This document shows positions 10,871 through 33,598 of a stretch of DNA of 64,000 bases, in pieces (position 1 is the first letter of the stretch; each line of letters opens with the position of its first letter). The DNA comes from Claveliimonas bilis (GTDB lineage Bacteria; Bacillota; Clostridia; Lachnospirales; Lachnospiraceae). The notes below the pieces were generated by a model. That model worked only from the letters and a program-made list of their open reading frames with translations. It had not been told where the DNA came from and did not search any database. The stretch spans positions 1 through 64,000 of the forward strand of contig NZ_AP027742.1 in assembly GCF_030296775.1 (NCBI RefSeq), given 5' to 3'. Position numbers and translations under genes: made by a program.

Positions 10871-10881
10871 GAGAACAGAAT

Positions 10882-11450: not shown

Positions 11451-11484
11451 AGAAAGAGGAGGTTTTTCAAAACCCCCTCTTTCT
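11451..11484. terminator. Bidirectional terminator between queT and the GGDEF gene
   Basis: A 16-bp stem with one mismatch (11451-11466 with 11469-11484) and a 2-nt loop, followed by A/T-rich sequence on both sides. It closes queT on the plus strand and the long exopolysaccharide/c-di-GMP transcription unit on the minus strand. Confidence 0.8.
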
Positions 11485-11485
11485 A

Positions 11486-12835
11486 TTATATTTCCCGTAT
11501 CTCGCATCGACCTTTTCCGCTCTGTTTGATTTCATATAAAATACCATCTGCAGCCTTATATATACTGGAAAAAGATCTGGGCTCCATGCTGTATATTCCG
11601 CCTACTGATACAGATGTGCTTACAGACGGACACCTGTTCTTTGCCTCCTCAACATAATCTTTTATAATCTTTTCAACCTTATTTTGAATTGCCTCTTTAT
11701 TAAAACAAGGCTGTGCATAGACCGCAAATTCATCACCGCCCAACCGAATAGCTATGTCTGTCTTTCGAAATGTCTCCCGCAGCTGTTTTGCAAAGAAGCG
11801 AAGCATCTTATCTCCGGTTCCATGACCATACATATCATTCACACTTTTAAAATTATCCAGATCGATCATTAGAAAGATATATGGTGCATCACTGTTATTC
11901 ATCTTGGCTGTTACGGTAGCCTCCCCGCCTTTCCGATTATATATTCCAGTGAGAAAGTCCCGATTGGATTCTTCAATGAGGTTTTTCTTCACCCTGACGC
12001 TCTCGGAAATATCTACGAGAACGCTGATGATCGCTGAACGTCCATCTTCTGCTATAATCTTTCGCCCTATATCATACACCCACAAACTGGAGCCGTCTTT
12101 TTTCTTCACGCGATATTCGATGGCATATTGTTTTTCCTGTTTTAAGCAGTCCAGAACATGCTTTTCTACCATATGGGCATCATCTTCATGAATAGAATTA
12201 ATGACCAGTCCTTCTGTCTCTTCTACAAATTCATTGTATGTGTATCCCATCATTTCCAGCATCGTATCGTTTACTACATAAAGTGGAAATCCGTCCTCAA
12301 TATATCCTCCGATCACTCCTCCCGGCATCATCTGGCAGATAATGTCCAACAGTTCATGTTGGGCTGTCTCATTGAGTTTTTCTGTCTTTTCTGAAAAAAA
12401 GCGCAGCGGAAAAAATTCTCCGCTTTCCTGATATGAGCTGGCTTCCGACATATGGAGAGCGGTCGCTAAAAATTCTTCCCCCACTCTCCGGAATCCTCCG
12501 GTAAAACGGGTAAGGTAGCGGATCTCTTCCTCGCTTCCATTTAATCTGACGGCAGTCTCTACCTTACAAAGACATTCCCAGCTGTTCTCCCCTGTCTGCT
12601 TTTCCTGATAATCCATAATTTTGTACTGAATCGGATCCGGTATACCCTTAATTTCTTCCTCAAGCAGCCTGGCAAATTCTTCTTTATTCGTCGCTGTTTC
12701 CTCATCGCCGGTTCCCAAAGAATACAGGTCGTCTGCAACTATTGACAGGGTTTTTGCAATGTTCCTCTCTTTCAGATAACAGTCAAAGAACCGGGTAAGA
12801 ACAGGATAGATCACTTTCTTTTCTACCATCTCCAC
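11486..12835 (-). CDS. PAS-GGDEF diguanylate cyclase
   Basis: Predicted c-di-GMP synthase, 449 residues, cytosolic. The N-terminal region (about 1-130) looks like an NTF2/SnoaL-type fold, followed by a PAS domain (about 165-280, with GGYIEDGFPLYVVNDTMLEM) and a C-terminal GGDEF domain. The active site RLGGDEFAV is intact and an RKTD I-site sits five residues before it, so both catalysis and product inhibition are expected. Translation probably starts at the GTG (12835) or the ATG two codons later; AGGAGG precedes both. It is the last gene of the long transcription unit encoding the Pel-like machinery. Confidence 0.88.
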   Translation of the reverse strand: MEMVEKKVIYPVLTRFFDCYLKERNIAKTLSIVADDLYSLGTGDEETATNKEEFARLLEEEIKGIPDPIQYKIMDYQEKQTGENSWECLCKVETAVRLNGSEEEIRYLTRFTGGFRRVGEEFLATALHMSEASSYQESGEFFPLRFFSEKTEKLNETAQHELLDIICQMMPGGVIGGYIEDGFPLYVVNDTMLEMMGYTYNEFVEETEGLVINSIHEDDAHMVEKHVLDCLKQEKQYAIEYRVKKKDGSSLWVYDIGRKIIAEDGRSAIISVLVDISESVRVKKNLIEESNRDFLTGIYNRKGGEATVTAKMNNSDAPYIFLMIDLDNFKSVNDMYGHGTGDKMLRFFAKQLRETFRKTDIAIRLGGDEFAVYAQPCFNKEAIQNKVEKIIKDYVEEAKNRCPSVSTSVSVGGIYSMEPRSFSSIYKAADGILYEIKQSGKGRCEIREI

Positions 12836-12881
12836 ACGACCTCCTTTTCTATTCTTTCCAAAATTTTACAATAAAAACACG

Positions 12882-13973
12882 CTACTGATACAGCCTGCGC
12901 AGAGGTTTTTCCGCCTGCATGAAACACTTCAGAAGTTTCGGATTAAACACTCCGCACTCTCCGTCCCGGATCATCCGAAGCGCTTCTTCCACCTCAATAG
13001 CTCCTTTGTACACCCGTTTGCTCACTAGTGCATCGTAAACATCCGCCAGAGAAACAATCTGAGCCCACATGGAAATTTCATCTCCTTTCAGGCCATCAGG
13101 ATATCCCCTGCCGTCCCATCTCTCATGGTGATGTTCTGCAATATCATATGCATACTGAAACATCTGGTGCTCCATAATATGCGGAATCTTTTTTAAAAGC
13201 TGGGCGCCCTGAGTTGTATGGGTTTTCATAATCTCATACTCTTCCGGAGTCAGTCTGCCCGGTTTATTCAAAATAGCATCGGGAATCGCTATCTTACCCA
13301 CATCATGCATGATAGCAGCCATCGCAATCTGTCTGATCTCTTCTTCCTTCAGTCCTTCTCCCAACTCTGTATTTCGCAGAAGATATTCCGTAATATCATG
13401 AATCCGATGTACATGTTCTCCGGATTCTCCGCTTCGAAATTCAATGGCGGTAGACAATGCTTCCACCATTCCCATATTGAGCAGAATAATCTGCTCCGCC
13501 TGTTTTAAAAGCTCACTCTGCTGCTCCTCCACCTTACTGCTAAGCCTCTTCCTCGCGCGGAAAAGCTCTATAACAGAATCAATACGTCTTCTTACTACAT
13601 AGGGGATAACAGGCTTATGGATAACATCCATTACTCCCAGTGAATACGCCGTTTTCAAAATCCTGTCATCTGCTTCAGCAGTGATCAGAAACACTGGTAT
13701 TTCCGTCTGAGTCCCTTTTTCATTCAGGATCTTCAACACTTCTATTCCATCCATAACAGGCATGACCACATCCAGCAAAACCGCACAGTAACGTTCTGTC
13801 TGTGCAAACAATTTTTCCAATCCAATCCTGCCATTTTCTGCCTCTTCCACACAATACCCGGAAGAAAAAATATTTTCCAGAATTGCCCTGTTTATTTCAT
13901 CATCATCCACGATCAGTATTGTGTTATTTCTATTTACTGTCTCTTCTCTGTCCTTGCTGCTGTCCTTTTTCAT
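12882..13973 (-). CDS. Response regulator with HD-GYP domain (predicted c-di-GMP phosphodiesterase)
   Basis: An N-terminal receiver (VDDDEIN, phospho-Asp in VLLDVVMPVMDG, Lys in VIHKPV), a short coiled linker, then an HD-GYP domain with MHDVGKIAIPD, a HHHERWDGRGYPDGLKGDE segment and LADVYDAL. All HD-GYP signature residues are present, so it should hydrolyse c-di-GMP when signalled. I chose the ATG at 13973 (GGAGGG upstream); an upstream in-frame ATG at 14036 overlaps the kinase gene and has a non-family N-terminus. It lies directly after a hybrid kinase, its probable partner. Confidence 0.9.
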   Translation of the reverse strand: MKKDSSKDREETVNRNNTILIVDDDEINRAILENIFSSGYCVEEAENGRIGLEKLFAQTERYCAVLLDVVMPVMDGIEVLKILNEKGTQTEIPVFLITAEADDRILKTAYSLGVMDVIHKPVIPYVVRRRIDSVIELFRARKRLSSKVEEQQSELLKQAEQIILLNMGMVEALSTAIEFRSGESGEHVHRIHDITEYLLRNTELGEGLKEEEIRQIAMAAIMHDVGKIAIPDAILNKPGRLTPEEYEIMKTHTTQGAQLLKKIPHIMEHQMFQYAYDIAEHHHERWDGRGYPDGLKGDEISMWAQIVSLADVYDALVSKRVYKGAIEVEEALRMIRDGECGVFNPKLLKCFMQAEKPLRRLYQ

Positions 13974-14032
13974 CGTCCACCCTCCTGACCTGGTATCTCT
14001 TTTTCTATTTTTCCCCGGAAGCTGCTTCCCAT

Positions 14033-16531
14033 TCAATTTTTAAGCAGCTTCTCCATCGTTTCTTTTAATATCTGGAAATCAATCGGTTTGGAAACATGTG
14101 CGTTCATCCCCGCTTTCTGCGTGGAGACAATATCCTCTGCAAAGGCGTTTGCCGTCACTGCAATAATAGGAATGGTCCCTCCGTCTTTTTTCTCTGAACA
14201 GCGGATTGCAGCAGCAGCTTCGCATCCATCCATCACAGGCATCTGCATATCCATTAAAATGATGTCAAAATAGCCTGTCGGTTTTCTCTCAAACAGCTCC
14301 ACTGCCTCTTTCCCGTTCCAGGCTTCCTCCGACTCCATACCGAAACTTTTCAGAATTTCCTGTGCAATCTCCATATTGATCATATTATCCTCGGCAATAA
14401 GCACCTTCTTTCCTTCCAGGAAAGCTTCTTCGTTTCCGCCTTTTTCTTTTGCTTCCTCCTGCGGAAGAACCTGCTCTTCACTGATCTGGCAAGGGATCAT
14501 TATTTCAAATTCCGTTCCCTCTCCCAGCTCACTTTCCACTTCTATGGTCCCTCCCATCTTATGCACCAGTTCATGCACAATGGGCATTCCAAGCCCTGTC
14601 CCGGCGACATTCGCTGCCCCGAACTGCACTTCCCTTTCAAAAGGCAGATACAATTTTTTCAGAAATTCCCGGCTCATACCTGCACCATTATCCTGAATGC
14701 GGAAATGGTACTTGCGATATTTGCTGTTGCTGTCTTTTTCCTCTGTTACTGTCATCTCCACTTTTCCATCGTCCGCAGTAAACTTAAAGGCATTTGACAA
14801 AATATTATTTAAAATCTGCTGAATCTTTCCCCAATCTCCTCTGATATAGATGTCTTCTATATCGATATGGGTCAGGAATTGCTTTTCTGTTTCTTCCGTC
14901 TGTAGCCGGAAAATTTCTGCAAGTTCCTTCAGATTTTCCTTTATCCGAAAACTCTCGCTTCGAAGTTCCAGCTTCCCTTCTTCCATCCGGGAAATATCCA
15001 GTATTTCATTAATCAGTTCCAGGAGCTGATTTCCAAGCTGTCCGATCCTGCTTAGCGTCTCCGCTGTCTTATCTGCATCCTCGGTATGATTCTTTGCAAG
15101 TTTTGCCATACCGATGATTCCATTAAGCGGAGTTCTCATATCATGGGACATTTGGGAGAAAAACATATTTTTGCTCTTTGCCATGCTGTCTACCGAATCC
15201 AGAGAATCTTTTAAAAGCTCCAGCATGGACAGATCATGTTCCTTAGCCTCATTAATATCCCTGAAACCAAGTACCACTGTTCCCTTCTGCAAAGATTCAT
15301 CATAAAGCATTTGAACATGCACCCATCGGTATTCCCCGTTGAAAAGTCTTTTGAAATCTCCTCCAAAATCCCGGATCCGTTTTTGCACCAGTTTTTCCAT
15401 GTTTTCTGTAGAAAAGGTATTCAAAAATTCTTCATAATCTTCTTTTCTTATCAGCTCCTTCATGATATCCAGAAGCTGGCTGTATTCCCCTTTCTGCAGG
15501 AGCCTGTTCCTCACATAGTCAGACCCTTTCAGCATCGTATACTGTCCGCTTTTCAGATCAATCTGATAAAGTGCGTAATAAGAATTCCCCAGCACACCTA
15601 CGATCTCATTGTAAACTTTCGCTTTCCTGCTTGTCCGGTAATCGGCTACTGCAAAAATGATCACAGACACAACAAAAATTCCCATAATTCCCAGAAATAC
15701 ATTCCAGGCTCCTTCATAGGATTCCAGCAAAGTGTCATAAGGAATCGTAACGACCGAATACCATCCTGAATCCAGCTTGTAATAATATACGCCTCTCTTG
15801 ACACCGTCCACTCCTATAATATAAGAATCATAAGTATCAAATTCTCCTTTCAGGATTCCTGCAAAAATTTCATCAAATTTCTCCTGAAGATCTTCATGGC
15901 TTTTCACAGTAAGATTGTATTTCAGAAGCTCTCCTTTTGAATCTGACAGAAAATAGTTCGTCCCTTCCGGAAGGCGCTGTTTTCTCTCCTGTTCCAGCTG
16001 ATGGTCCGGATAAAGATCCACTGCCACCACGTCCTCTGTTCCCTTAATCTGTTTTGCCAGGGTCACCACGGTCTTATTCAGCCGCACATCGATATAAGCA
16101 TCTGTATAAATAGTCTCCCCATCCGCTTCTATCGCCTGCTGATACCACTGTGTCCCCAGTGGATCAAATGTTTCATCTCCTTCCCAATAAGTAGCTGCAT
16201 AAATTTTCCCATCTACAGATACATAGGCCTCCACATCATCAAGCCCCATCACCTCATCTGCAAATTTCAGATATTGCTGGATCAGCTTCTCATAACTGTC
16301 CGTTCGGTTTTCCGGTCTCAACTGATATTCCAGCGTTTCCAGCACAGTTTCGTACTGATTTGTAACAGCCACCTCATTCAATGCATATACATGAGCTGTT
16401 TCGCTTCCCATTGTTTCTGCGCTGTCAAGAACTGCTGCACTCATCCTCTGTATAGCAACAGGGATAACCAATATGAGAATAAGCATTGAAAGGAAGAGAT
16501 AGCCATATCGCTTTTTACGCTTTTTCTCCAT
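14033..16531 (-). CDS. Hybrid sensor histidine kinase with extracellular Cache-like domain
   Basis: 832 residues: TM1 (about 9-27), a large extracellular region resembling a double Cache sensor, TM2 (about 278-298), a PAS-like segment (about 315-435), HisKA with His in MSHDMRTPLNGIIGM, an HATPase domain (NILSNAFKF; GTGLGMPIV), and a C-terminal receiver (AEDNMIN; Asp in ILMDMQMPVMDG; Lys in VSKPID). There is no HPt domain. It overlaps the upstream DivIVA-like gene by 17 bp, and the HD-GYP regulator follows, so it probably links an external signal to c-di-GMP breakdown. Ligand unknown. Confidence 0.9.
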   Translation of the reverse strand: MEKKRKKRYGYLFLSMLILILVIPVAIQRMSAAVLDSAETMGSETAHVYALNEVAVTNQYETVLETLEYQLRPENRTDSYEKLIQQYLKFADEVMGLDDVEAYVSVDGKIYAATYWEGDETFDPLGTQWYQQAIEADGETIYTDAYIDVRLNKTVVTLAKQIKGTEDVVAVDLYPDHQLEQERKQRLPEGTNYFLSDSKGELLKYNLTVKSHEDLQEKFDEIFAGILKGEFDTYDSYIIGVDGVKRGVYYYKLDSGWYSVVTIPYDTLLESYEGAWNVFLGIMGIFVVSVIIFAVADYRTSRKAKVYNEIVGVLGNSYYALYQIDLKSGQYTMLKGSDYVRNRLLQKGEYSQLLDIMKELIRKEDYEEFLNTFSTENMEKLVQKRIRDFGGDFKRLFNGEYRWVHVQMLYDESLQKGTVVLGFRDINEAKEHDLSMLELLKDSLDSVDSMAKSKNMFFSQMSHDMRTPLNGIIGMAKLAKNHTEDADKTAETLSRIGQLGNQLLELINEILDISRMEEGKLELRSESFRIKENLKELAEIFRLQTEETEKQFLTHIDIEDIYIRGDWGKIQQILNNILSNAFKFTADDGKVEMTVTEEKDSNSKYRKYHFRIQDNGAGMSREFLKKLYLPFEREVQFGAANVAGTGLGMPIVHELVHKMGGTIEVESELGEGTEFEIMIPCQISEEQVLPQEEAKEKGGNEEAFLEGKKVLIAEDNMINMEIAQEILKSFGMESEEAWNGKEAVELFERKPTGYFDIILMDMQMPVMDGCEAAAAIRCSEKKDGGTIPIIAVTANAFAEDIVSTQKAGMNAHVSKPIDFQILKETMEKLLKN

Positions 16532-17363
16532 CCTTCTTTATTCCATTCTCCAGTTTTATTGATTCTTTCACACCTTCCTGCCCTAGAAGTGCATTGGCAT
16601 GACGGTATTTTCTGGCATTTTCCAACTCACGGTAATGCTCTCCCTCCCAGTAATCATCCAGGCGCACCGGCATATTCTGCACCATTTTCATCATCCTGGA
16701 ATTAATATTAAACAGCCCCTGCTGCGCACTTTCAATCTCTTTTATATACTGTTCGATCTTATATTTCGCCGCGATAAGCTGAATCCCTTTTTCTTCCAGC
16801 TGAGCATTGATCCTTGCCGCAATGATATCCTTCTGTTTCTCTGTTTCAACCTTTGCTGTTTCGATCATCTCTTCTGCCCGCTTCTTCGCTTCCTCCTCAA
16901 TGGCTTCTGCATTGCGGTTGGCATCATCCATAATCTTGGAAACTGTTTCATAATCAAAAAATCCGCCATCCTGATTTTTCTTCAGATTTTCCAGCTCTTT
17001 TTCCTGCTGGGCCATTCTCTCCTTTAACGCAGCATTTTCTTCCTGAAGGACTTTGTATTCGCCCTCCGGCATATCCTGATCTGCTCTTTCCGACTGATCC
17101 TTTGCTTCCTCCAGCAGCCGGTGCAGTCTGTCGTTTTCTTCCTGGAGCTTAGCAGTCTCTTCCTGAAGTTTTGGCACTTCCAAGTCCACCTGCTCTGCCT
17201 TTTCCTGACTGTCCTCCATCTTTCTTAACAGATCTGCTTTTTCCTTTTGATGAAGCACTTTTACAGATTCTATTTCATGCTCCAGTGTCTTAATATACTC
17301 CTCTACATCTGTTTTGTTAAAACCTCCGAACAGTGATGTCCGGAACATTCCATTGCCAGCCAT
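16515..17363 (-). CDS. DivIVA-like coiled-coil protein
   Basis: 282 residues. The N-terminus (FRTSLFGGFNKTDVEEYI) matches the membrane-curvature-binding DivIVA/GpsB domain, followed by long coiled coil rich in Glu/Lys/Gln (about 35-215) and a short tail. DivIVA proteins mark poles and division sites and recruit wall or secretion machinery. AAAGGAGG supports the ATG. The position inside the Pel-like/CotH/VTC gene set, directly before the sensor kinase, suggests a scaffold that places the machinery or the signalling protein. That role is inference. Confidence 0.75.
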   Translation of the reverse strand: MAGNGMFRTSLFGGFNKTDVEEYIKTLEHEIESVKVLHQKEKADLLRKMEDSQEKAEQVDLEVPKLQEETAKLQEENDRLHRLLEEAKDQSERADQDMPEGEYKVLQEENAALKERMAQQEKELENLKKNQDGGFFDYETVSKIMDDANRNAEAIEEEAKKRAEEMIETAKVETEKQKDIIAARINAQLEEKGIQLIAAKYKIEQYIKEIESAQQGLFNINSRMMKMVQNMPVRLDDYWEGEHYRELENARKYRHANALLGQEGVKESIKLENGIKKDGEKA

Positions 17364-17396
17364 ATCATTTTCCTCCTTTATCTGTTTATGTTTCCT

Positions 17397-18776
17397 CTAT
17401 TCATAAGTGTATATGATCTGAACATTATCTGTCTGTCTTCCTTCCATAGCAAGAAGAATATGTTCCTCCTCATCCGGATCCGTGATTCCTATGCCTATTT
17501 GATATCCCTGCCGAAATTCATCTGTAAACGGGATATGGTTTGTTGTCTCAACTGTCTCTCCCGGCACCAGATCTGACAGATTGATCTCTATATTTTCCCA
17601 GTATTTCAGTTCCCCGTCAGAATTGTATACATACATAGTGACAGGCCAGTCCCAGTACAACGGCGCAAGACCTGAATTTTCCCATGTCATCGTCACTTCC
17701 AGCTCTCCGTCACGGAAAGAATATTGGGTACTTAAACGTGAAATGTAATAGCGGTATCCCAGCTCTTCCCGGATACTCTCTGCTACACTTCCATCTTTCA
17801 GATCTCCTTCCGGGCATTTGGGACCGATAAAAGTCGTATGAGAATCCCGGATCATCTCCAAAGTCTCTGAAAGCCGGTCTGACAAAAGCTCTTCCATAGT
17901 ATATTCGCTGGTAAACTCTCCTCCGCTTGGCGCCTTCTCCCAGAAATCTTCCATCGGTTCATACTCCAGTGCTTTTCCGGAGGTTTCAAAACTTCCTCCA
18001 TTTTGGATCCAGTCCAGCCACTCTTCCGTATCACTTTCACTTCCGATCATGTCATTGTAAAGCCCCAGATCTCCATCTGCCGCCATCACAAAATTTCTTC
18101 TCATCAGAAGCCTTGCATTATGAAAGTTATCGGAATAATCCAGCACATAATCCCAGCATACTTCTGCATCGGGAAGCGGCTCAAGACCTTCATCCGTATT
18201 GGTATGCCATTCTCCCCAATGTCCCAGACTTCCAAGTTCCACATAAGCCACGAAGTCATCTTTATTACAGTACTTTGCAAGCGCCTGAATTGCCAGGGCA
18301 TGACGCTCTCTGAAAAATTCATTGGAATAATCCGGAGAATAGCCCGCTCCATACTCTGTACTGTAAAATTCTCCGTCTCTCGTCTTCTCGTACAGCCATT
18401 CCGGAATATCTTTATGTCCCTCTTCACCGGGAATATCACAGATAAACCGAAGCACGGCATGCTTATTCTGGCTCTTCCATTCCTCAATATGGAACAGCTC
18501 TTCCAGCGCTTCTGTGTCATATTCTCCCTGTGACGGTTCCCACATACTCCATGTCACGCCAATGTATACCAGCTGCGAGTCCTGGCACTCCTCTTCATTG
18601 TCCGCCGATGGCGCATACCCGGTAAGAGGATTGTTAAGAGGCTCATCAGTTTCCTTAAAGGATACAGTATGATTCAACTGATATCGGTAAGGTACGATAT
18701 AGATCAGCAGCGCGGCAATGGCAACGGCAAGTACAGCCATCATGATATACGGAACCTTCGAGTTTCTTCTTCCCAT
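17397..18776 (-). CDS. DUF4832-type, TIM-barrel glycoside-hydrolase-like exported protein
   Basis: 459 residues with one N-terminal membrane anchor (about 10-27). The body begins with the family's NPLTGYAPSADNEE, then a barrel-like region with TWSMWEPSQGEYD, CDIPGEEGHKDIPEW, and YVELGSLGHWGEWHT, ending in an Ig-like beta domain (about 355-459). The Trp/Glu/Gly-His-Trp pattern is that of the DUF4874/DUF4832 pair, related to glycoside hydrolases. In an operon with a Pel-like synthase it could trim or bind the exported polymer, but no activity is established for this family to my knowledge. Confidence 0.7.
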   Translation of the reverse strand: MGRRNSKVPYIMMAVLAVAIAALLIYIVPYRYQLNHTVSFKETDEPLNNPLTGYAPSADNEEECQDSQLVYIGVTWSMWEPSQGEYDTEALEELFHIEEWKSQNKHAVLRFICDIPGEEGHKDIPEWLYEKTRDGEFYSTEYGAGYSPDYSNEFFRERHALAIQALAKYCNKDDFVAYVELGSLGHWGEWHTNTDEGLEPLPDAEVCWDYVLDYSDNFHNARLLMRRNFVMAADGDLGLYNDMIGSESDTEEWLDWIQNGGSFETSGKALEYEPMEDFWEKAPSGGEFTSEYTMEELLSDRLSETLEMIRDSHTTFIGPKCPEGDLKDGSVAESIREELGYRYYISRLSTQYSFRDGELEVTMTWENSGLAPLYWDWPVTMYVYNSDGELKYWENIEINLSDLVPGETVETTNHIPFTDEFRQGYQIGIGITDPDEEEHILLAMEGRQTDNVQIIYTYE

Positions 18777-18785
18777 ATCATTCTC

Positions 18786-19469
18786 CTATCCGTGATACTC
18801 TCCATTGTACTGGATCAGCGATACGTCCCGTACACCCTCTACTGCCTGGATCTGCTCCATAAAAAGAGTGTTGTTGTTTCTGCAGACAAGCTCGATGGTC
18901 AGTTCTGTCAGCTCTCCGCGGATCGTCTTGGATTTCAGCTGATGCTTCATCTTGTTTAGTATTCTCAGTATCTCATCCCCTGCAAGTTCTGACTCATAAT
19001 GAGCTACCAGTATAAAAATCGTTCCTTTTTTCCTGCGGTTATAAAACAAGTGCACTACAGCCACCATAATAAGCATCGTAGCAATCGCCAGCACATACAG
19101 TCCGGCTCCCAGCGTGATTCCCACAGAAATAGACCAGAACAGATACAAAAGATCCATGGGATCCTTGATCGCAGTACGATACCGGACGATAGACAACGCA
19201 CCGACCATACCAAGGGAGATCACGATATTGCTGCTGATAGCCAGCGTCAGCATGCAGCTTAGTACCGTCATCCCCACCAGAGTCACCGCAAAGGAACTGG
19301 AAAATACAACTCCTCCGAAATAATGACCGTAAATTTTATAAATAAAGATTCCCAGTATTACGGCCAGCAGCATTGCAATAACTGCCTTTGTCATAAAATC
19401 AGCAGTCAGACCCTGGCCGTCCATAAAGGACTCCCAGACTGAGTTTTTAAAATAATCTCTTATATTCAT
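18786..19469 (-). CDS. DUF4956 membrane protein
   Basis: 227 residues: four to five hydrophobic helices between about 28 and 140 with the conserved GMVGALSIVRYRTAIKDP segment, then a soluble ferredoxin-like C-terminal domain. DUF4956 genes regularly sit beside VTC-domain and CotH genes in Gram-positive bacteria, exactly as here: it overlaps the VTC gene by an ATGA and ends 10 bp before the DUF4832 gene. Biochemical role unknown; a membrane partner of the VTC protein is a reasonable guess. Confidence 0.8.
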   Translation of the reverse strand: MNIRDYFKNSVWESFMDGQGLTADFMTKAVIAMLLAVILGIFIYKIYGHYFGGVVFSSSFAVTLVGMTVLSCMLTLAISSNIVISLGMVGALSIVRYRTAIKDPMDLLYLFWSISVGITLGAGLYVLAIATMLIMVAVVHLFYNRRKKGTIFILVAHYESELAGDEILRILNKMKHQLKSKTIRGELTELTIELVCRNNNTLFMEQIQAVEGVRDVSLIQYNGEYHG

Positions 19470-20221: not shown

Positions 20222-20227
20222 CGTTCA

Positions 20228-21988: not shown

Positions 21989-22024
21989 ATTCTTCCTCCT
22001 TGTACCGCAACAATTGCCATAGGC

Positions 22025-25291: not shown

Positions 25292-26691
25292 CTTCTAAAC
25301 ACCTCATCATATGCTTCCTGATAGTTGCGTATCATATCTTCATGCCGAAAGTATTTTTCTACCCTCTTTCTCCCGATCTGTCCCATCTGATAACGTTCCT
25401 CTGTATGGGTACACATCATTTCCAGTGCATCACAGAGCGCTTCCCTGTACATGGGCGGCACGCAGTAGCCCGCCACTCCCAGGTCGTCTCCCTCCATCCC
25501 GTTTATCAGCTGTTTGCAGCATCCCACATCTGTTACAACGCAGGGTCTTCCTGCAGCGAACGATTCCAGAACAGCCAGCGGCTGTCCTTCTGAAATACTG
25601 CTAAGGACGGTAAAATCAAATTTTTCCATATATTCCAGAATATTGACTGTCCCAAGGAAATATGCATCGGCAAGCCCCAGCTGTTCCTTCAGGTCATAAC
25701 ACTCTTTCGCATACTCTTCATCGTCCTCGGGTCCTGCAATATAAAGTCTCACATTCGAAATCCTGCTTCGCAGATCCGCAAATGCATAGAGAAGGGTCTT
25801 AACATCTTTAATCGGGGAAATCCGAAGAACCGCCCCAATATCTACATATCCATTATCCTTTTTCGGCCTCATGGAGGAAAACCTCTCGTAATGAATCCCA
25901 TTGGTAATGTATCTGCAAAGCTCCGGGACGCATCCCATCTCAATCTGTGTTTCCCTTGCTTTATCAAAGAGACTGGTGATCATAGAAGCCTTGCCATATG
26001 CCGCACCCGACAACATATAGAAAAAACGCACCCAAAATCTTTTAAATGCCGGTATAACCCATTTTGCACGGATGATCTCTTCCTCTCTCTCCCGGGTATA
26101 GATTCCGTGCTCTGTAATCTCATAGGGCACACCATTGACATAACTTCCAAGCCTCGCGAGCACTCCGCTGTAACCTGTGGCAATGGCGTGATAAATATCC
26201 GCCTTGGGCACATCTGACTGCAAAATATAGAGCACCGGAAGAAGCATAGATCTGACTGTATGAAAAAGATCCGAAAAACTGGTATAAGGGTACTCTTCAT
26301 GACAGATTTTCATAAGGATTTCCAGGAAATCCTCACTCATCAAAAATGCCACCGGAGATACCTTATTGTCATGATACATGCGGAACAAAGTTTCCCAGTC
26401 AGGCTCCCTGCAGTTTACAAATTCCCGGAGCGCTTCCAGCTCCTCTTCTTTAAACTTGTATTTTTCTTTTACAAAAGGCATGGTAAGAGCGTCATTTAAA
26501 AAGATTTCCCTGATCTCTACAACATTGTCAGGAAGCTCATATTTAAACTTTCCCTGATCTTTGGAATCAGCACCTACCGCCCAAACTACAAATTCATGCT
26601 GGGGCATGGCCTTCATATATTGGTGAACCCAGGTAGATACCCCTCCTGTCACATAGGGATAGCACCCTTCCAGTATTACACAGATCCTCAT
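25267..26691 (-). CDS. pelF: PelF-like GT4 glycosyltransferase
   Basis: 474 residues, cytosolic, GT-B fold. The N-terminus MRICVILEGCYPYVTGGVS with TWVHQY is the hallmark of PelF, the UDP-sugar polymerase of Pel systems. The donor-site motif EGQPLAVLESFAAGRPCVV (about 388-406) carries the retaining GT4 glutamates. It starts with an ATGA overlap on the preceding DUF2194 gene and overlaps pelG, so it is translationally coupled. Pel polymer in Pseudomonas is GalNAc-rich; the sugar here cannot be read from sequence. Confidence 0.88.
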   Translation of the reverse strand: MRICVILEGCYPYVTGGVSTWVHQYMKAMPQHEFVVWAVGADSKDQGKFKYELPDNVVEIREIFLNDALTMPFVKEKYKFKEEELEALREFVNCREPDWETLFRMYHDNKVSPVAFLMSEDFLEILMKICHEEYPYTSFSDLFHTVRSMLLPVLYILQSDVPKADIYHAIATGYSGVLARLGSYVNGVPYEITEHGIYTREREEEIIRAKWVIPAFKRFWVRFFYMLSGAAYGKASMITSLFDKARETQIEMGCVPELCRYITNGIHYERFSSMRPKKDNGYVDIGAVLRISPIKDVKTLLYAFADLRSRISNVRLYIAGPEDDEEYAKECYDLKEQLGLADAYFLGTVNILEYMEKFDFTVLSSISEGQPLAVLESFAAGRPCVVTDVGCCKQLINGMEGDDLGVAGYCVPPMYREALCDALEMMCTHTEERYQMGQIGRKRVEKYFRHEDMIRNYQEAYDEVFRRWQESVSA

Positions 26692-28607
26692 TTTGCATCC
26701 TTTCTTTGAATCGTAACCGTATCCTGCTCTGCTTCCAGAAGATACAGATTCCCGCTCAGCTTCGTCAGGCTTCCGCCTTTCACCGACTCTTCATCCGGTG
26801 TCCACTCGTTAAAACGGATCATCAGCCAGGCTTCATCCTGAAAATTCGACAGCTGGATTTCCAGACCGTCTTTTGTCTCGATCTCTTCTGATCCTAAATA
26901 ATAAAATCTCTGCACTGCGCCTGCCATTTCAGATCCTGTCATCCGTCGGATGTCCGGCGCCGCCTCTTCCTGCCATTTTTCATAATCGTTCAGATTTTCC
27001 ACCATGGCAGGCCAGCCAAGATCAGCTCCCGCATCCGGATTCAGCACATCTGTAGGAGAGATAGAATGGGAAACCACATAGTGAAAATTCAGCTCCGAAA
27101 AAGCGCTCAGCTTCATATCTTCACTGATTTCTCCTCCGGATGTTATGCGGGGCGTCATGATCATCCCGTCTTCGTCTACTTCGTATTCCTGCTCCTTCGC
27201 ATATCCGCCGCTGAAATAGTCCGCCGCCACGGCTGCGATATCCGGCAGAGTATCTTTTATCGCATCCAGTCCGTCCTCTGACCAGATATTGGAAGGAGGC
27301 GTATAGACCTGCATCGTTTCACTGTCAATAATTCCTTTCTGAAATTCCTCCACTTCCTTAAGACCTGCTGCCATGTCCGATTTATTGTTCCAGTATTTCA
27401 GACCCAGATCCTTCTCATAATCCAGCTCTTCCGTCTCCTCTCCGGTCTCCTCTTCTGTTCCCTCCCGGGTCCCGATATCGCTGGTTTCCAGGCAAAGAGG
27501 CTGCTGGTTATATCCGAAAAGGCCCAGTTCTCCGTCCAGTTCCATTAAAGTAGATGCAAAATACTGATACCGGTTGGAGGAAGCCTTTGACTCAAAAGGC
27601 GCTTCTACATCATTATCATTGTTCTCCTGTATCGTTCCTGTATAGGAAATGCCGTATTCTTCCGCCAGACTGATAAGGTCATTCCACCATTCTCTGACAT
27701 AAAAAGAATACATATCCATATTGTCCCCATACTCCTTTGTAATGTAGGAGTTCTTTTCTTTTGGAAGGGGGAAAGGAAAACCATCTATATAAAACGCCGA
27801 ACTGTTAATAACAGGCCATACACAGTACTCTGACAGAAGACTGTAAGCTGCCGCGTAAATTCCTCTGCAGTTTTTTTCATAATGCCCCAGGTTCACAACA
27901 ACCACATGCCCTTCCCTGCGGTCCGTCTCCCACAAAAGGGGCACTTCTCTTTCATCCGCCGACACCATATGAACTTCGCAGGATTCTCCAAGGGAGACCG
28001 TAAGCGCGGACTGATAAGGATATTCGATGGCATACTCTGTCTGTTCTCCGGTAATCATAAAATCATCTTTGATCCGGATTCCACTGACTTCATAGTAGGC
28101 GGAACCCAGGTTTTCCACGCCGATCCTCGGACTCATAAAACTGTACACACTGCCGGTTTCCGGAACCTGCGGCATCAGAAGGTTGCCGCCTTTCTCCATC
28201 CAGCTTACCACTTCCAGTATGACACTGCTGTGTTCCTGAAAGTTTGTAAATCCCGTAATGACAATCTGGTATTGATCAGGATCCGGCATCTCTTCCTTGC
28301 TAAGATCTGTCTCAGTATACTCTACCTTCATGTCGTGAAGGATCTGCGTCATCTGATCATAAAAGACGGCAGAATTTTCATCTGTACTGTCCCACAGGTA
28401 AAGGCAGTCCGGATTCTCCTCCTGCGTTTCCTCTCCACTGTAACCAAGTTTTGTAAAACTGTTATCCTCCAGAATGGAAAGGCCGGATTCCCCGCCTCCT
28501 GTCCTTGTCACCATCCAGCCATACTGTCCAAGCAGAGCAACCGCAATCAATATAAATACAATTAATACAATAATAACCGAAATATAGCGTTTCTGCTTTT
28601 TGTTCAT
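26688..28607 (-). CDS. DUF2194 protein, degenerate deacetylase-like paralogue
   Basis: 639 residues with an N-terminal anchor (about 8-28). The layout matches the upstream DUF2194 protein: a flavodoxin/Rossmann-like first half, then a polysaccharide-deacetylase-like barrel. The metal-binding positions have changed: FYIDGFPFP instead of FYIDDFPSP, and GLFGYNQQPLCL instead of GFHGYNHMPLCL, so one Asp and both His are gone. An acidic insert (about 375-395) is also unique to this copy. It is probably a non-catalytic partner of its paralogue or a polymer-binding subunit. Position equals that of the deacetylase gene in described Gram-positive Pel clusters. Confidence 0.75.
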   Translation of the reverse strand: MNKKQKRYISVIIVLIVFILIAVALLGQYGWMVTRTGGGESGLSILEDNSFTKLGYSGEETQEENPDCLYLWDSTDENSAVFYDQMTQILHDMKVEYTETDLSKEEMPDPDQYQIVITGFTNFQEHSSVILEVVSWMEKGGNLLMPQVPETGSVYSFMSPRIGVENLGSAYYEVSGIRIKDDFMITGEQTEYAIEYPYQSALTVSLGESCEVHMVSADEREVPLLWETDRREGHVVVVNLGHYEKNCRGIYAAAYSLLSEYCVWPVINSSAFYIDGFPFPLPKEKNSYITKEYGDNMDMYSFYVREWWNDLISLAEEYGISYTGTIQENNDNDVEAPFESKASSNRYQYFASTLMELDGELGLFGYNQQPLCLETSDIGTREGTEEETGEETEELDYEKDLGLKYWNNKSDMAAGLKEVEEFQKGIIDSETMQVYTPPSNIWSEDGLDAIKDTLPDIAAVAADYFSGGYAKEQEYEVDEDGMIMTPRITSGGEISEDMKLSAFSELNFHYVVSHSISPTDVLNPDAGADLGWPAMVENLNDYEKWQEEAAPDIRRMTGSEMAGAVQRFYYLGSEEIETKDGLEIQLSNFQDEAWLMIRFNEWTPDEESVKGGSLTKLSGNLYLLEAEQDTVTIQRKDAK

Positions 28608-28640
28608 CCTGCTTCCTTTCTCTGTACCCTTCTGTCTTCC

Positions 28641-30482
28641 TTACTGCCCAATTACAATTTCTATCTCATCATCCTGTGCTTCCAGAAGATAAAGTCCTTC
28701 TGCCACTTCCGTAAGACTCCCTCCTGTCACTTCTCCCGGCGTTCCCTCATTGATCCGGACCATAAGCCAGGCTTCATCCCTGAAATTTGCCAGATGAAGT
28801 TTTAATCTTCCGTCTGTATAGTCCCGTTCCACTTCCAGATTGTCGTAAATCTGCACTGCCGCCGCCAGTTCGCTGCCGGTCAGATTGCGGATGTCCGACG
28901 CCGATGTATACAGCCATTCGGTATAGTCTGAGATCCTTTGATACATTTCCTCCCATCCAAGAGCCGCTCCCCTGTCCTCGTCCAGGGTATCGTCCGGATG
29001 CTGGAAATGAGTGTTTACATAGTGGAAATTCAGTTCCGAGAATGCTATAAGCTGGGTATAATCATCCATAATATATCCAGATATGATACGGGGCGTCTCG
29101 ATCATCCCGTCCTCCGCCACCTCAAATTCCTGTTCGTATGCCACTTCGTCCAATCCGCCGATATAGACACTGGCAACGGCCTTGATCCCGTCCACATCCT
29201 CCTTCAGCATGGTTCTGCCTTCCTCGGAAAGGATATTGGAGGGCGGGACATAAACCTGGAACTTCTCTTTAGGGAACATCTCTTCACAGAAGCTTTTCAG
29301 CTCCTGGATAGAGGCCAGCATATCCTCATAACTGTGCCACAGCCGGTAGGACTCATATCCGTCTCCGTAATCGAATCCAAGAAGACACAGCGGCATGTGA
29401 TTGTACCCATGGAAGCCGATCTCCCCTCCCTGATCAAGAAGCATATTTCCAAAATATCGGTAGCGCTGTGTATCATTATTGCGCTCATAGGGCTGCTCCA
29501 CATCGTCAGAATACTGCTCGATCACAAGTCCTGTGTAGCGGATGCCGTATTCCTCCGCCAGATTATATACATCATTCCACCATACCTGTGTATAAAATTC
29601 CGAGATCGTCATCCCGTAATCCCGCTTAATATATTTGCTCTCCCCTCCGGGAACCGGAGATGGGAAATCATCAATATAAAACGTAGAACCGTTGATCACC
29701 GGCCATGCGCATGTTTCTTCCAGCAGGCTGTAAGCTGTGGAGTAGAACCCCCGGTATGCCTTTTCCACAATTCCGATATTGCAGAATACAGCCTCTCCTT
29801 CTCCCTGCTTTGTCTTCCAGATCAGAGGAACCAGATTTTCATCTGTAGATTCCATATAGACCTCTGCGTTATCATCCAGGGATACTGACAGGGATGACTC
29901 AAAGGGATCCGTAATTACGTATTCCTTGTCCCCGCCTATCATAAAGGGCCGGGTCATCCGAAGACCGGACGTTACGACGTAGTCATTTCCCAGTCTTTCA
30001 ATTCCGAAGTCTTTTGCAAATACCTGAAAGCTTCCGTTGATCTCCGGGGGATAGAGGGCCATCAGACTTCCCCCTGCTTCCAGCCAGTCCCGAAGCTTCA
30101 GAAGTGTCTCATCCAAAATATTCCAGCGAGTCACCGACAGAACAACAGTCTCATAATCTTCCAGGTCATGCCGGTTCGCCTCTTCCCCCTGCACTGTTTC
30201 ATAGGGAATTCTCATCTGGCTTAAGATATCTTCCATAAGCTCCAGTCCCTGTCTGCCCGTATCATCATCTTCCCAGATAATAAGGCACTCCGGATCCTGG
30301 TCCAAAGTCACCAGATCAAGGCTGTCCTGTTCTACAGGTTCCAGCTCTCTTTCCTGTTCCTCATAAGGGACATTCCACTGCACAAAGCACAGCACGCCTA
30401 CCAGCAATAAAAAGACTACAATCACTGTCTGCAGTTTTCGGAAACGGAAAATGCCTCCCTTTTGCCGCTTTCTTCTTTTCAA
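28641..30482 (-). CDS. DUF2194 polysaccharide deacetylase-like protein (PelA-like)
   Basis: 613 residues, one N-terminal transmembrane anchor (about 16-34) and an external body. It combines a Rossmann-like half (LIIWEDDDTGRQGLELMED) with a deacetylase-like barrel that keeps the metal motif: Asp-Asp in FYIDDFPSP and His pair in GFHGYNHMPLCL. PelA-type deacetylases remove acetyl groups from the polymer as it is exported. It overlaps the PelE-like gene by 4 bp. Whether it also holds the PelA hydrolase activity cannot be judged; I do not see that domain clearly. Confidence 0.78.
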   Translation of the reverse strand: MKRRKRQKGGIFRFRKLQTVIVVFLLLVGVLCFVQWNVPYEEQERELEPVEQDSLDLVTLDQDPECLIIWEDDDTGRQGLELMEDILSQMRIPYETVQGEEANRHDLEDYETVVLSVTRWNILDETLLKLRDWLEAGGSLMALYPPEINGSFQVFAKDFGIERLGNDYVVTSGLRMTRPFMIGGDKEYVITDPFESSLSVSLDDNAEVYMESTDENLVPLIWKTKQGEGEAVFCNIGIVEKAYRGFYSTAYSLLEETCAWPVINGSTFYIDDFPSPVPGGESKYIKRDYGMTISEFYTQVWWNDVYNLAEEYGIRYTGLVIEQYSDDVEQPYERNNDTQRYRYFGNMLLDQGGEIGFHGYNHMPLCLLGFDYGDGYESYRLWHSYEDMLASIQELKSFCEEMFPKEKFQVYVPPSNILSEEGRTMLKEDVDGIKAVASVYIGGLDEVAYEQEFEVAEDGMIETPRIISGYIMDDYTQLIAFSELNFHYVNTHFQHPDDTLDEDRGAALGWEEMYQRISDYTEWLYTSASDIRNLTGSELAAAVQIYDNLEVERDYTDGRLKLHLANFRDEAWLMVRINEGTPGEVTGGSLTEVAEGLYLLEAQDDEIEIVIGQ

Positions 30483-31390
30483 ATACTATTCCTTCCTTCT
30501 TCCTGCCAGAACCTGATCTGACTCCTTCCCTCCGGCGTGAGATAAATATTTTTTCTGGTAATTGTCTCTAATATCTGTTCAATCCCCCTGCGGCTCTGTA
30601 CCGCAGAATAGTATTGTATCATCAGCAGATAGCCCGCTTCATTTCTGTCCCATTCCCGCATGATATGCTCAATCTCCTGACGGGCTTCATCATATTCTCC
30701 AATCCTTAAATCGGTAACCGCTTTTTCTCTCCACAGAGGCAGACGGTCAGGATGATTCTTAAGCTTTTTCTCCAGCATGCCGCTGTAAGAACGAAGTTTT
30801 AAGATCCTTTCATTTCCCTCCGCAATTCCGCTTTCCAGATACTGATCTAAAAGCTTCAGATAACGGTCTGTAATGTCGTCATTGTCCGGATCATTTTCCA
30901 ATTCCCAGTCCAGCTCCTGAAACTGAAGATCGTATTCCTTCTGCAGCTCTGCAAGAGCTGTGACCGCATAATGAACAACCTCTGTATCATCATTTGTTCG
31001 GGCTTCTTTCAGCTGCTTTACATAGTCATCGGGATTGGCATACATGACTTCCATCATCAGCTCTCGTCTGGTGAGAGGATCATTGATAAGAAGCGCTTCC
31101 TCCAGAGGTACGACCCGATCTTCGATAGGATCTTCTTCCATCAGGATGCTTCGGTGGATCGCATCATTGATCTTCAGTTTTTCAATTCCCACTTCTTCAT
31201 ATATATCCTGCCGTCCTCTGGTCCGTATCTCCAGAAAAAGGAGTGCCAAAAGCCCCCACAGGGGAACCAGACATACGATCGGCATAAACTGCCGCGGCGT
31301 TTTTAAAAGCGATATCCTCATAAGAAGATATACGAGGATACACAGAATGATATGAATGATTAAAAATATAATTATCACAGATTCTCCCAT
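30479..31390 (-). CDS. pelE: PelE-like membrane protein with helical repeats
   Basis: 303 residues. Two hydrophobic helices open the protein (about 4-25 and 37-55), followed by a cytosolic alpha-helical region (about 75-300) with tetratricopeptide-like pairs (for example EYDEARQEIEHIM near 225). This architecture and the place between pelD and the DUF2194 genes match PelE, which holds the synthase complex together with PelD, PelF and PelG. Sequence identity in this family is low, so the call leans on order and topology. Confidence 0.7.
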   Translation of the reverse strand: MGESVIIIFLIIHIILCILVYLLMRISLLKTPRQFMPIVCLVPLWGLLALLFLEIRTRGRQDIYEEVGIEKLKINDAIHRSILMEEDPIEDRVVPLEEALLINDPLTRRELMMEVMYANPDDYVKQLKEARTNDDTEVVHYAVTALAELQKEYDLQFQELDWELENDPDNDDITDRYLKLLDQYLESGIAEGNERILKLRSYSGMLEKKLKNHPDRLPLWREKAVTDLRIGEYDEARQEIEHIMREWDRNEAGYLLMIQYYSAVQSRRGIEQILETITRKNIYLTPEGRSQIRFWQEEGRNSI

Positions 31391-31393
31391 CCT

Positions 31394-33523
31394 TTATCCG
31401 ACCGCTTCCACAATCTGATATTTCATGCCTTTTCCGTTTAAACGGTCTCCTACAATACGGAAATTCTCCCGGTTCATCTGCACAAGCAGAAGATAAATAT
31501 TGCCATCTTCATCCGTTCCCAATACATCGCTGGCACGTATCATACCGGATAACTGATCGCTGACTCTTTCTTTATCTTTATCTTTAAACCGGATCAGCAC
31601 ATGATCCGCCACACCGGCCTCTTTCATGGATTCCTGCACTTCCAAAAGCTGGCGGAGCCTTTCCGGATAAGCAATATGCGTCCTTGGATCATACATCTTG
31701 CTTTCTGCCAGCTCTTCATATTCCAACGCTCTTAGGAAAGACGTCTGCACCAGTCCGCACATAATCTGGAAAATATTCATATAATGCATACCGTACTGTT
31801 CTACATCCGCCTCCTGAATTGTAATAAGGAGTACCATCGTTCCTTCTTTGAAAATTCCGCATGCATACATGGGCATTCCGGGAACCATATCTGTATTCTT
31901 CCACACCTGCCCTTTTTTCACCGTGTCATACAGCTGGCTGTAATCCTCAATACGAATAGATTTTGTCAGCTTTGTCAGCAAACTGTTGGAACATACCGCC
32001 AGACGGCCGAATTTCTGCCAGGAATCTAATGTATAAATGGCAATTGTATGGTTTTCCAGAATATCTTCGAGTACCTTAACTCCTTCAAAAAAGATCCGCT
32101 CCGGATATTCACTGTCCAGTTTCTGCACTGCATCAAAAATTTTGCCAAAACTGTCCTTAAATCCCAGAATCTGTTTTTTATACTCTCCTTTATTTTCCAC
32201 AGCCCCGTGGTAAACATCACTTAAAAACAGATATTTGTCCCGCAGCAGGGAATATTCTCTTCGCACAAATGCCAGCGCATCGTCTTTTTTATTGGAAATA
32301 TAGCCGGTAATGGAACCCGCCATCAGATAAACAACAAATGGAATCCAGTTTTCAATATTATAGAAGAGAATGGTTCCATTCATTCCCATAAGCGCATATT
32401 CCCGTATCAGTACCAGACATTCCAGAACTGCTGCCACAAGACCTGTGCGCATTCCATAAATTGTTCCCATGATGATAATATAGAAAAGTCTTACGTCTAC
32501 AAATTTAAAATAGATTGATTCTGATGTGTAATGACTGATAATTTCCGCAATGATAAATACCAGCACGAGCTCTACATATTTAAGAGCACCTTTCCCTGCC
32601 CTGGCAAAAAGAGACATGATCTTTCCTGCAAGTCCGGATTTCTGTGTCATGACTTCATTGACAAAGGTTCTGTAATATGTACCTATATTTTCCATCGCGT
32701 TATCCATAGGGATAAACCCGTATTTTCTCCTCAGCTCTTTTGGATAAGACGGTATTTCTGCCACAAACGGATAGTTCTCGTATACGATTTTTGCATCCGG
32801 GACCGCAATTTTCAACATATCTTCCAGGTCGCCATAAGTATAATGATATCCGCTTACCGCATAATAAATGCCACTGTCATCCTCTGTTTCTTCTGTCAGC
32901 TGGAACATCAGCTCCACCAGATCGTCCAGCGTAAGGAAATTAAGCGGATCCTCCCTGTGGTAAGGAAGCATCACTTTTTCCTCTTCATACATGCTGCGGA
33001 AAATGTGTCCCAGGAAATTTTTGTCATTGATACGGTCAGCCAGATAAGGCAGTCGGATCATAACCGTCGGCATTTTACTTCTCTCCATAAAATACTGACA
33101 CATCTCTTCCATCTGTCCTGCTCCGAAACAGCGGCTGGAATAGTAATCCTTCTTTAACAGCTCACCTTGTTTCCCATAACTAGCCATATAATTCTGACTG
33201 TCCACCGTCGAAAAAACAACCAGCTTATCCACCCGCGAACGGCTGCATTCCAGCATAACCTGCTCCAGCTGCTGTGTTTCGCCAAAGAGACCATTTCCCC
33301 CGTCTGTATACCCGCTCACATAGTAAATGGTCTGGAAGCTATATACATCAAACAACTGACGGAACTTTTCCTCTGTCGGTGATGTCTTATATGCTGTTAT
33401 ATGTTTCTGGTTTCCTGATACTGCCGAAGGTCCCGCGATCACCACACGATACTCTTCCGCCAGACGGAGAAGGGCATCTTCCGTAAACAGCTCAGTGCAC
33501 CCGCAAATCAATATCTCTGTCAT
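31394..33523 (-). CDS. pelD: PelD-like c-di-GMP receptor with N-terminal SDR domain
   Basis: About 709 residues. The N-terminal third is an extended SDR/NmrA-like Rossmann domain (start MTEILICGC; later VVFSTVDSQNYMASYGKQ). About four membrane helices follow (about 315-425), then a GAF-like domain (about 455-600) and a C-terminal degenerate GGDEF. The catalytic motif is lost (EDGNI in place of GGDEF), but an I-site-type RASD remains five residues ahead, the arrangement that binds c-di-GMP in PelD. I chose ATG 33523 because AAAGGAG sits four bases upstream. It is the first gene of the cluster, behind a consensus promoter. Confidence 0.8.
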   Translation of the reverse strand: MTEILICGCTELFTEDALLRLAEEYRVVIAGPSAVSGNQKHITAYKTSPTEEKFRQLFDVYSFQTIYYVSGYTDGGNGLFGETQQLEQVMLECSRSRVDKLVVFSTVDSQNYMASYGKQGELLKKDYYSSRCFGAGQMEEMCQYFMERSKMPTVMIRLPYLADRINDKNFLGHIFRSMYEEEKVMLPYHREDPLNFLTLDDLVELMFQLTEETEDDSGIYYAVSGYHYTYGDLEDMLKIAVPDAKIVYENYPFVAEIPSYPKELRRKYGFIPMDNAMENIGTYYRTFVNEVMTQKSGLAGKIMSLFARAGKGALKYVELVLVFIIAEIISHYTSESIYFKFVDVRLFYIIIMGTIYGMRTGLVAAVLECLVLIREYALMGMNGTILFYNIENWIPFVVYLMAGSITGYISNKKDDALAFVRREYSLLRDKYLFLSDVYHGAVENKGEYKKQILGFKDSFGKIFDAVQKLDSEYPERIFFEGVKVLEDILENHTIAIYTLDSWQKFGRLAVCSNSLLTKLTKSIRIEDYSQLYDTVKKGQVWKNTDMVPGMPMYACGIFKEGTMVLLITIQEADVEQYGMHYMNIFQIMCGLVQTSFLRALEYEELAESKMYDPRTHIAYPERLRQLLEVQESMKEAGVADHVLIRFKDKDKERVSDQLSGMIRASDVLGTDEDGNIYLLLVQMNRENFRIVGDRLNGKGMKYQIVEAVG

Positions 33524-33537
33524 AATTCTCCTTTTGC

Positions 33538-33552
33538 ATACCTTCAAGGTAT
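33538..33552. promoter_or_regulatory. 15-bp perfect palindrome between pel promoter and pelD ribosome site
   Basis: ATACCTT-C-AAGGTAT (33538-33552), a perfect 7-bp dyad with a 1-bp centre, lying between the predicted start of transcription and the pelD Shine-Dalgarno. Well placed for a repressor operator; too short a loop for a good RNA hairpin. Confidence 0.45.
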
Positions 33553-33569
33553 TCTTTTTCTTTTATACC

Positions 33570-33598
33570 ATTATAGTTGTGTTTTTGGTGATATTCAA
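33570..33598 (-). promoter_or_regulatory. Promoter of the Pel-like operon
   Basis: Minus strand: TTGAAT (33598-33593), a 17-bp spacer, TATAAT (33575-33570), about 50 bp before pelD. This is the only strong promoter I found ahead of the 22-kb run of same-strand genes ending at 11486. Confidence 0.75.

Follow-up and report, generated by a model that had tools for sequence, protein, structure and literature searches.

Layout of the operon and its Pel core

We analyzed the first 64,000 nucleotides of contig NZ_AP027742.1 of Claveliimonas bilis (Lachnospiraceae), hereafter the window, which carry an operon for the exopolysaccharide Pel together with genes for cyclic diguanylate (c-di-GMP) enzymes. 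The genome is a single contig of 3.11 Mb. The operon comprises 14 genes, seen as 15 open reading frames (ORFs) as one gene is split, all on the minus strand and running from 33523 to 11486 (Table 1). In the 5′ to 3′ direction we observed pelD, pelE, pelADA, a second DUF2194 gene, pelF, pelG fused to a first cotH gene (pelG::cotH1), the split cotH2 and a VTC-domain gene, followed by genes for DUF4956, DUF4832 and coiled-coil proteins, a hybrid histidine kinase, a REC-HD-GYP protein and a SnoaL-PAS-GGDEF protein. An earlier sequence-only reading of this DNA had described about 14 minus-strand genes with gaps of 0–46 bp; the gene count and the strand stood, and the gaps turned out to range from −25 to +46 bp.

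Table 1. Coordinates of the genes and signals of the C. bilis pel operon in the window
Feature	Coordinates	Strand	Remarks
Promoter TTGAAT-17-TATAAT	33570–33598	−	10/12 consensus matches
PelD: N-terminal degenerate SDR/epimerase-like region, transmembrane region, degenerate GGDEF with RASD I-site	31394–33523	−	RxxD aligned in relatives
PelE, TPR-type scaffold	30479–31390	−	weak TPR matches, position, conservation
PelADA, active-type deacetylase (DUF2194)	28641–30482	−	535.8 bits; DD and HxxxH kept
DUF2194b, pseudo-deacetylase paralogue	26688–28607	−	metal Asp to Gly, HxxxH lost; relative of solved 9zau
PelF glycosyltransferase	25267–26691	−	NF038011 PelF 346.6 bits, cut-off 100
PelG::CotH1 fusion	22025–25291	−	PelG 1–453 (414.5 bits), CotH kinase domain 633–962 (248.8 bits)
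CotH2 lipoprotein gene, interrupted	20228–21988	−	in-frame TAG 21236–21238, upstream of catalytic motifs
VTC-domain (polyphosphate-polymerase-like) protein	19466–20221	−	127.8 bits
DUF4956/MgtC-like membrane protein	18786–19469	−	40.6 bits
DUF4832 protein, glycoside-hydrolase-like by analogy	17397–18776	−	73.3 bits
Coiled-coil protein	16515–17363	−	in 8/11 fusion loci; below Pfam DivIVA cut-off
Hybrid histidine kinase (dCache, HisKA, HATPase, REC)	14033–16531	−	17-bp overlap with coiled-coil gene
REC-HD-GYP phosphodiesterase	12882–14036	−	sole HD_5 match in genome
SnoaL-PAS-GGDEF diguanylate cyclase	11486–12835	−	GGDEF and RxxD intact
Bidirectional terminator hairpin	11447–11488	.	19-pair stem, −26.6 kcal/mol, z −6.4

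The consensus promoter proposed earlier at 33570–33598 was recovered, and so was the bidirectional terminator, then placed at 11451–11484; none of 200 shuffles gave a hairpin as good, and the hairpin is absent from the list of the consensus terminator scanner. The terminator-site scans found no minus-strand terminator-like site in the intergenic gaps of the operon, in agreement with the earlier statement that no hairpin separates the genes. Promoter-like sites between 11000 and 30000 occurred at chance level (39 observed, 34.4 ± 6.2 expected). The strongest such match within the operon (22206–22178, TTGACA-17-TATTAT, 11/12), about 190 bp ahead of CotH2, may represent either an internal promoter or a chance match.

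A second strain, C. bilis c-25 (NZ_AP024845.1; genome G001), is 99.2% identical to the window over 23 kb of the operon. The distance from the GGDEF gene to the lysyl-tRNA synthetase gene (window 8778–11486; L038/L039) is about 1.3 kb in the window and about 11 kb in c-25, so that the 3′ side of the operon is a stretch varying between C. bilis strains.

All five genes pelD, pelE, pelADA, pelF and pelG are present in the order that marks a Gram-positive Pel operon. The sequence-only reading had correctly recognized such an operon in the order pelD-E-A-DA-F-G, of which A and DA are not two Pel genes. We named pelD and pelE by position, the RxxD site and conservation, with curated models for neither; the profile matches of PelD to Epimerase and DUF4118 were weak and below cut-off. 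The arrangement of PelD, SDR-like region plus GGDEF, agrees with the one described in PMC7112168. PelD keeps RASD at the RxxD site and has EDGN in the GGDEF position, which supports its assignment as a c-di-GMP receptor, as already proposed. Its start is most likely the ATG at 33523, with an AAAGGAG-type site upstream, and not the TTG at 33547. One pel locus, L141 (Candidatus Fournierella), has unusually long ORFs for PelD (1010 aa) and PelE (561 aa). A sequence search of the PDB with PelG returned no relative.

The PelG–CotH fusion and its internal lipobox

The sequence-only reading had missed that pelG and the first CotH gene form one ORF of 1088 residues, whose linker carries an internal lipoprotein signal, Gly513-Cys514. 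The Asp motifs of the CotH atypical kinase, which we take to be catalytic, are kept in CotH1, a predicted kinase, as an alignment to the solved structure 5jd9 shows.

Next, we examined the distribution of the fusion. The counts of loci given here and below come from sampled genomes, many of them draft bins with contigs ending near the operon. PelG scored above cut-off in 59 of the 348 Lachnospiraceae genomes sampled and in 15 of 391 sampled across the class. A PelG frame of more than 1000 aa was present in five of the Lachnospiraceae genomes (G000, G001, G211, G266 and G325; four species) and, in the class-wide sample, in the window only. A scan using two short peptides of the fusion as patterns, which is biased toward relatives of the fusion, yielded 43 loci; 11 of these, from 11 species, have a fused ORF (L106–L115 and L127; L112 is 5′-truncated). 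An assembly error as the source of the fusion was rejected, because the frame is uninterrupted in 11 genomes, among them the complete record of c-25.

In a PelG tree of 56 rows, ten fusion species and the window clustered together, with an unfused Cuneatibacter among them at a weakly supported fork, and the fused L115, which also has a lipobox, had the unfused L136 as its sister. At least two changes of the fusion state are forced by well-supported branches of this tree, which we read as at least two origins. Relatives without the fusion often have a cotH ORF that starts before the end of pelG; therefore the fusion probably arose by joining of overlapping genes. The unfused first CotH of one locus (L121:11382-13343) differs from most relatives in having a twin-arginine-like signal and in lacking a lipobox.

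The junction on the 3′ side of PelG consists of a basic stretch, then a hydrophobic stretch and then the lipobox (signal at about residues 489–514). The lipobox reads LLNGC in the window and in c-25, and FLSGC, LLTGC, AVTGC, GLTGC, GLSGC, AISGC, SLVGC, GLSGC, LVSGC and TLTGC in the other fusions. We aligned the junctions of the 11 fusions from the peptide-pattern scan over columns 455–562 (108 residues) and found only G468, G513, C514 and E547 invariant in 11/11; the hydrophobic residues drift between fusions and the Gly-Cys pair stays constant. Hence all the 11 fusions, including the truncated L112, show the lipobox with Gly-Cys behind a basic and a hydrophobic stretch that is typical of bacterial lipoproteins, differing from the usual N-terminal signal in that it lies inside the protein. 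Among the unfused CotH rows, 41 of 61 match a simple lipobox pattern. The remaining 20 comprise five with a near-lipobox GC that the pattern missed by being over-strict (L117, one of L124, L136, L140 and G273), one cut by the end of its contig (L125) and 14 with none. The motif is thus common in CotH and not fixed.

Upon comparing the fusions, we found no start codon with a Shine-Dalgarno-like site conserved ahead of the lipobox. Start codons do occur there, a few with a short Shine-Dalgarno-like match, at positions that are not conserved. Separate synthesis of CotH1 from an internal start was rejected on this ground, which leaves no other evident route for making CotH1.

These observations led us to favor, with reasonable though not high confidence, a c-di-GMP-gated Pel operon of the published CotH/polyphosphate-polymerase type in which CotH1 is made as the C-terminal half of PelG; all the steps beyond gene content and motifs are what we infer. 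Binding of c-di-GMP to PelD would switch on Pel synthesis by PelF, a step shown in B. cereus and extrapolated here. PelG would export the chain, and PelADA would deacetylate it outside. The B. cereus model of PelG has twelve helices, with the membrane helix of PelADA docked on it (PMC13254593; here and below, statements on cited papers refer to the sections consulted). A twelve-helix translocase would end in the cytoplasm; judging by hydropathy and this model, the internal signal may form a thirteenth, inside-to-outside membrane segment, which would place the CotH1 domain outside the cell. In the fusion clade the kinase-like CotH1 would be translated as part of the exporter, and the lipobox Cys would most likely be lipidated by Lgt, followed either by an Lsp cut that frees the lipoprotein or by a lasting tether. 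Both outcomes would keep the kinase one-to-one with the exporter at the exit of the polymer. The probable role of CotH1 there is to phosphorylate some extracellular component of the machine or the matrix and to promote Pel output, the latter because deletion of CotH in S. intermedius lowers Pel (PMC12345266).

As to the fate of the chain, we tentatively suggest a PelG::CotH polyprotein that is lipidated at the internal lipobox and cut by Lsp into an exporter and an anchored, secreted kinase of fixed ratio and place; the genome has two lspA-type matches. It is about equally conceivable that the protein is never cut and that the former signal peptide serves as a thirteenth transmembrane helix tethering CotH to the exporter. 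Gene fusion in itself favors lasting tethering, and several of the 14 unfused CotH proteins lacking a lipobox-like Cys have a hydrophobic N-terminus, so that anchoring alone can suffice. If the helix were sufficient, however, one would expect the Cys to vary, and all 11 fusions keep Gly-Cys. Two points weigh against the favored scheme: the hydropathy of segment 499–517 is 1.52, among the weakest of the segments listed, and the lipobox might be kept merely as a part of the membrane anchor. A literature search for precedents of internal lipoprotein processing gave nothing direct among the matches listed. The polyprotein route, if correct, may be a general one for placing an extracellular enzyme where a polysaccharide leaves its exporter.

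Putative genes for c-di-GMP turnover in and beside pel operons

The last three genes of the operon form a signalling tail. The HD and GYP residues of the HD-GYP protein, as well as GGDEF and RxxD of the PAS-GGDEF protein, are intact. The genome has four GGDEF matches, one EAL match and one HD_5 match in total. We propose that in C. bilis these enzymes would act as co-transcribed, recently recruited tuners of local c-di-GMP.

The sequence-only reading had held that the hybrid kinase, the HD-GYP regulator and the PAS-GGDEF cyclase tune PelD locally. The physical linkage of writer, eraser and receptor stood, and the view of the tail as a conserved part of the locus was not supported: it is present in both C. 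bilis genomes and in no other locus examined, a number of these loci being cut short by the end of their contig. Among the loci examined, the tail is lineage-specific. Of 11 genomes of the genus Claveliimonas, none but the two of C. bilis has PelG; a third genome has a weaker HD-GYP match (48% identity). Orthologues of the HD-GYP protein with 67–72% identity occur in the fusion-bearing G266, G325 and G211, on contigs other than those with pel. In G325 and G211 the kinase adjoins HD-GYP, followed by a different GGDEF protein. The pel contigs of G266 and G325 extend 18.9 and 10.8 kb beyond the coiled-coil gene with no HD-GYP; the one of G211 stops after pelG::cotH, and the surroundings of its HD-GYP gene showed no pel gene. 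A kinase/HD-GYP pair as a pel-specific unit was therefore rejected, since the orthologues lie elsewhere. Within the family, the GGDEF protein has its closest homologue (58%; 9/338 genomes matched at 1e-70) in G045. There it forms a pair with a GGDEF-EAL gene, and an SDR-domain gene in the pelD position lies about 5 kb downstream of it, with argG intervening on the opposite strand.

We then considered enzymes of any type next to pel operons. After removal of duplicates and of the window, 94 loci remained, of which 55 carry CotH, VTC or DUF4956, as detected with the window proteins as queries (module loci), and 39 do not. PelG is visible in 92 of the 94, the other two (L125 and L129, both module loci) having accessory genes and no PelG within the contig. 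A GGDEF and/or EAL ORF, searched for, like HD-GYP, with custom-built profiles that may leave the counts incomplete, lies within 400 bp of the operon in 6 of the 55 module loci (G204, G150, G112, G077, L107 and L127), in all six on the same strand; C. bilis is additional. A flank of 400 bp was available on the 5′ side of 41 module loci and on the 3′ side of 48. In a post hoc test of GGDEF over 22 genomes, three same-strand neighbors (G204, G150 and G112) compare with about 0.10 expected, a density of 950 genes per Mb and a same-strand share of one half being assumed. None of the 39 non-module loci has an adjacent c-di-GMP enzyme, which is a weak control because the ends of these operons are poorly known and the window queries miss many genes there. 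The repeated presence of adjacent c-di-GMP enzymes partly rescues the earlier proposal, and it looks as if their local recruitment recurs beside CotH/VTC-type pel operons.

It is somewhat doubtful, but far from implausible, that the signalling genes are bystanders behind the operon that regulate c-di-GMP globally. The restriction of the tail to C. bilis, the location of HD-GYP on other contigs in the three pel-bearing genomes G325, G211 and G266 (with the kinase in two of them) and its presence in G227 and G329, two genomes outside the PelG matches of the Lachnospiraceae sample, all point that way and weigh against local tuning, as do the 48 of 55 module loci with no c-di-GMP enzyme beside the operon (C. 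bilis being counted as having one). However, the kinase gene overlaps the gene on its pel side by 17 bp, which leaves no room for a terminator, other c-di-GMP enzymes repeatedly adjoin pel operons, and the genome has few such matches altogether. We therefore prefer local tuning by co-transcribed enzymes.

Degenerate copies, accessory genes and known systems

Two genes of the operon have degenerate features. In the type-b DUF2194 proteins, Gly replaces the second (metal) Asp in 10/10 rows and a complete HxxxH is found in none, so that DUF2194b lacks the motifs of a polysaccharide deacetylase; the first DUF2194 (PelADA) keeps both motifs in 49/50 rows, the exception being L122 (the window and c-25 are counted as two rows in each set). 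In B. cereus PelADA these residues contribute to catalysis, and sugar is bound by the N-terminal domain (PMC13254593). The simplest reading of DUF2194b is a sugar-binding pseudoenzyme. It exceeds 620 aa in 9/10 rows, the row from Cuneatibacter being broken, and since its length is kept though it is inactive, it was probably retained as a binding protein. Six of the 11 fusion loci have the second DUF2194 gene.

In the CotH tree, for which 63 of 72 rows were used, the 16 rows of CotH2 make up a separate clade. The WDxD motif is lost in five of these 16 (L111, L116, L120, L121 and L124) and kept in 17/17 first copies of two-copy loci and in the single copies listed. The in-frame stop in the window may possibly be a sequencing error. 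Recoding of this stop was rejected, as the frame is uninterrupted in c-25 and no sign of recoding was seen. In the pel locus of Cuneatibacter caecimuris (L116), the frames of PelADA, DUF2194b and CotH2 are broken. That the operon is decaying in the window strain, as the split CotH2, the dead deacetylase copy, the losses of WDxD and the broken frames in Cuneatibacter might suggest, is improbable, given that the core genes and CotH1 are open with their motifs kept, that the nearly identical c-25 has an intact CotH2 and that DUF2194b keeps its length.

CotH, VTC, DUF4956 and DUF4832 are contiguous with pelG, as in the accessory group described for other pel loci. A sequence search of the PDB with the VTC protein returned no relative. 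In L185:7741-10821, where no pel locus was seen, a GGDEF gene lies directly upstream of VTC and DUF4956 (118 and 86 bits), a hint that such pairs have c-di-GMP links elsewhere. In NELoc-2 of Clostridium perfringens, VTC-domain genes are followed by a CotH gene, like in the pel accessory set (PMC2879425). The coiled-coil protein, earlier called DivIVA-like, scored 17.4 bits against DivIVA (PF05103; cut-off 28), and only one of ten proteins scanned, the second coiled-coil protein of G238, passed the cut-off (36.5 bits). Among the fusion loci, its gene is missing from L109 (where the contig ends), L112 and L115 in the available DNA.

The sequence-only reading considered this combination of genes new. 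Gram-positive pelDEADAFG operons and clostridial PelD extended by an SDR domain were described in 2020, along with an accessory set contiguous with pel in streptococci and clostridia (CotH, poly-phosphate polymerase, DUF4956 and DUF4832) and a diguanylate cyclase/phosphodiesterase gene in bifidobacterial pel loci (PMC7112168). In S. intermedius, the four accessory genes were shown in 2025 to be dispensable for Pel: deletion of the CotH gene lowers Pel and does not abolish it, deletion of SIR_1592 (a membrane MgtC/ACT protein) raises it, and SIR_1591 is an active glycoside hydrolase (PMC12345266). We equate SIR_1592, by position, with DUF4956 and SIR_1591 with DUF4832. As the block has been published and partly tested, the claim of novelty fails for it. 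The PelG–CotH fusion is not reported in the consulted text of PMC7112168, apart from its figures S4/S5, which might draw one, nor in the consulted parts of PMC12345266 and PMC7112194, in the latter of which the word CotH does not occur.

Compared with pelDEADAFG of B. cereus ATCC 10987 (PMC7112168), C. bilis shares the core gene order, the RxxD of PelD, PelADA, PelF and PelG. It differs in its SDR-type PelD, the degenerate second DUF2194, the fusion of PelG to CotH and the c-di-GMP enzymes within the same unit. With the streptococcal and clostridial accessory group (SIR_1591–1594) it shares the four contiguous families downstream of pelG, whereas CotH1 is fused to PelG, a second CotH paralogue is present, and the coiled-coil gene and the kinase/HD-GYP/GGDEF tail are added. 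The bifidobacterial loci likewise have a c-di-GMP enzyme beside pel, CotH, the poly-phosphate polymerase and DUF4956; there one dual enzyme takes the place of DUF4832, whereas C. bilis has two proteins, one HD-GYP and one GGDEF, together with a kinase and keeps DUF4832 (PMC7112168).

The roles of CotH, the polyphosphate-polymerase-like protein and DUF4956 were left open in the consulted parts of PMC7112168 and PMC12345266. A CotH welded to the exporter suggests the extracellular mouth of PelG as the site of CotH action. The differently built and repeated c-di-GMP enzymes beside pel suggest selection for local control of PelD. Lipoprotein synthesis by way of a conserved internal lipobox in an exporter fusion would, if true, be unusual. 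Polyproteins with internal signals include cytochrome b/c1 of Bradyrhizobium and fused ABC permease/binding-protein transporters, and they have in common with PelG::CotH a membrane protein and an extracytoplasmic domain linked by an internal signal. PelG::CotH differs from both in that its signal is of the lipobox type and joins a polysaccharide exporter to a CotH kinase.

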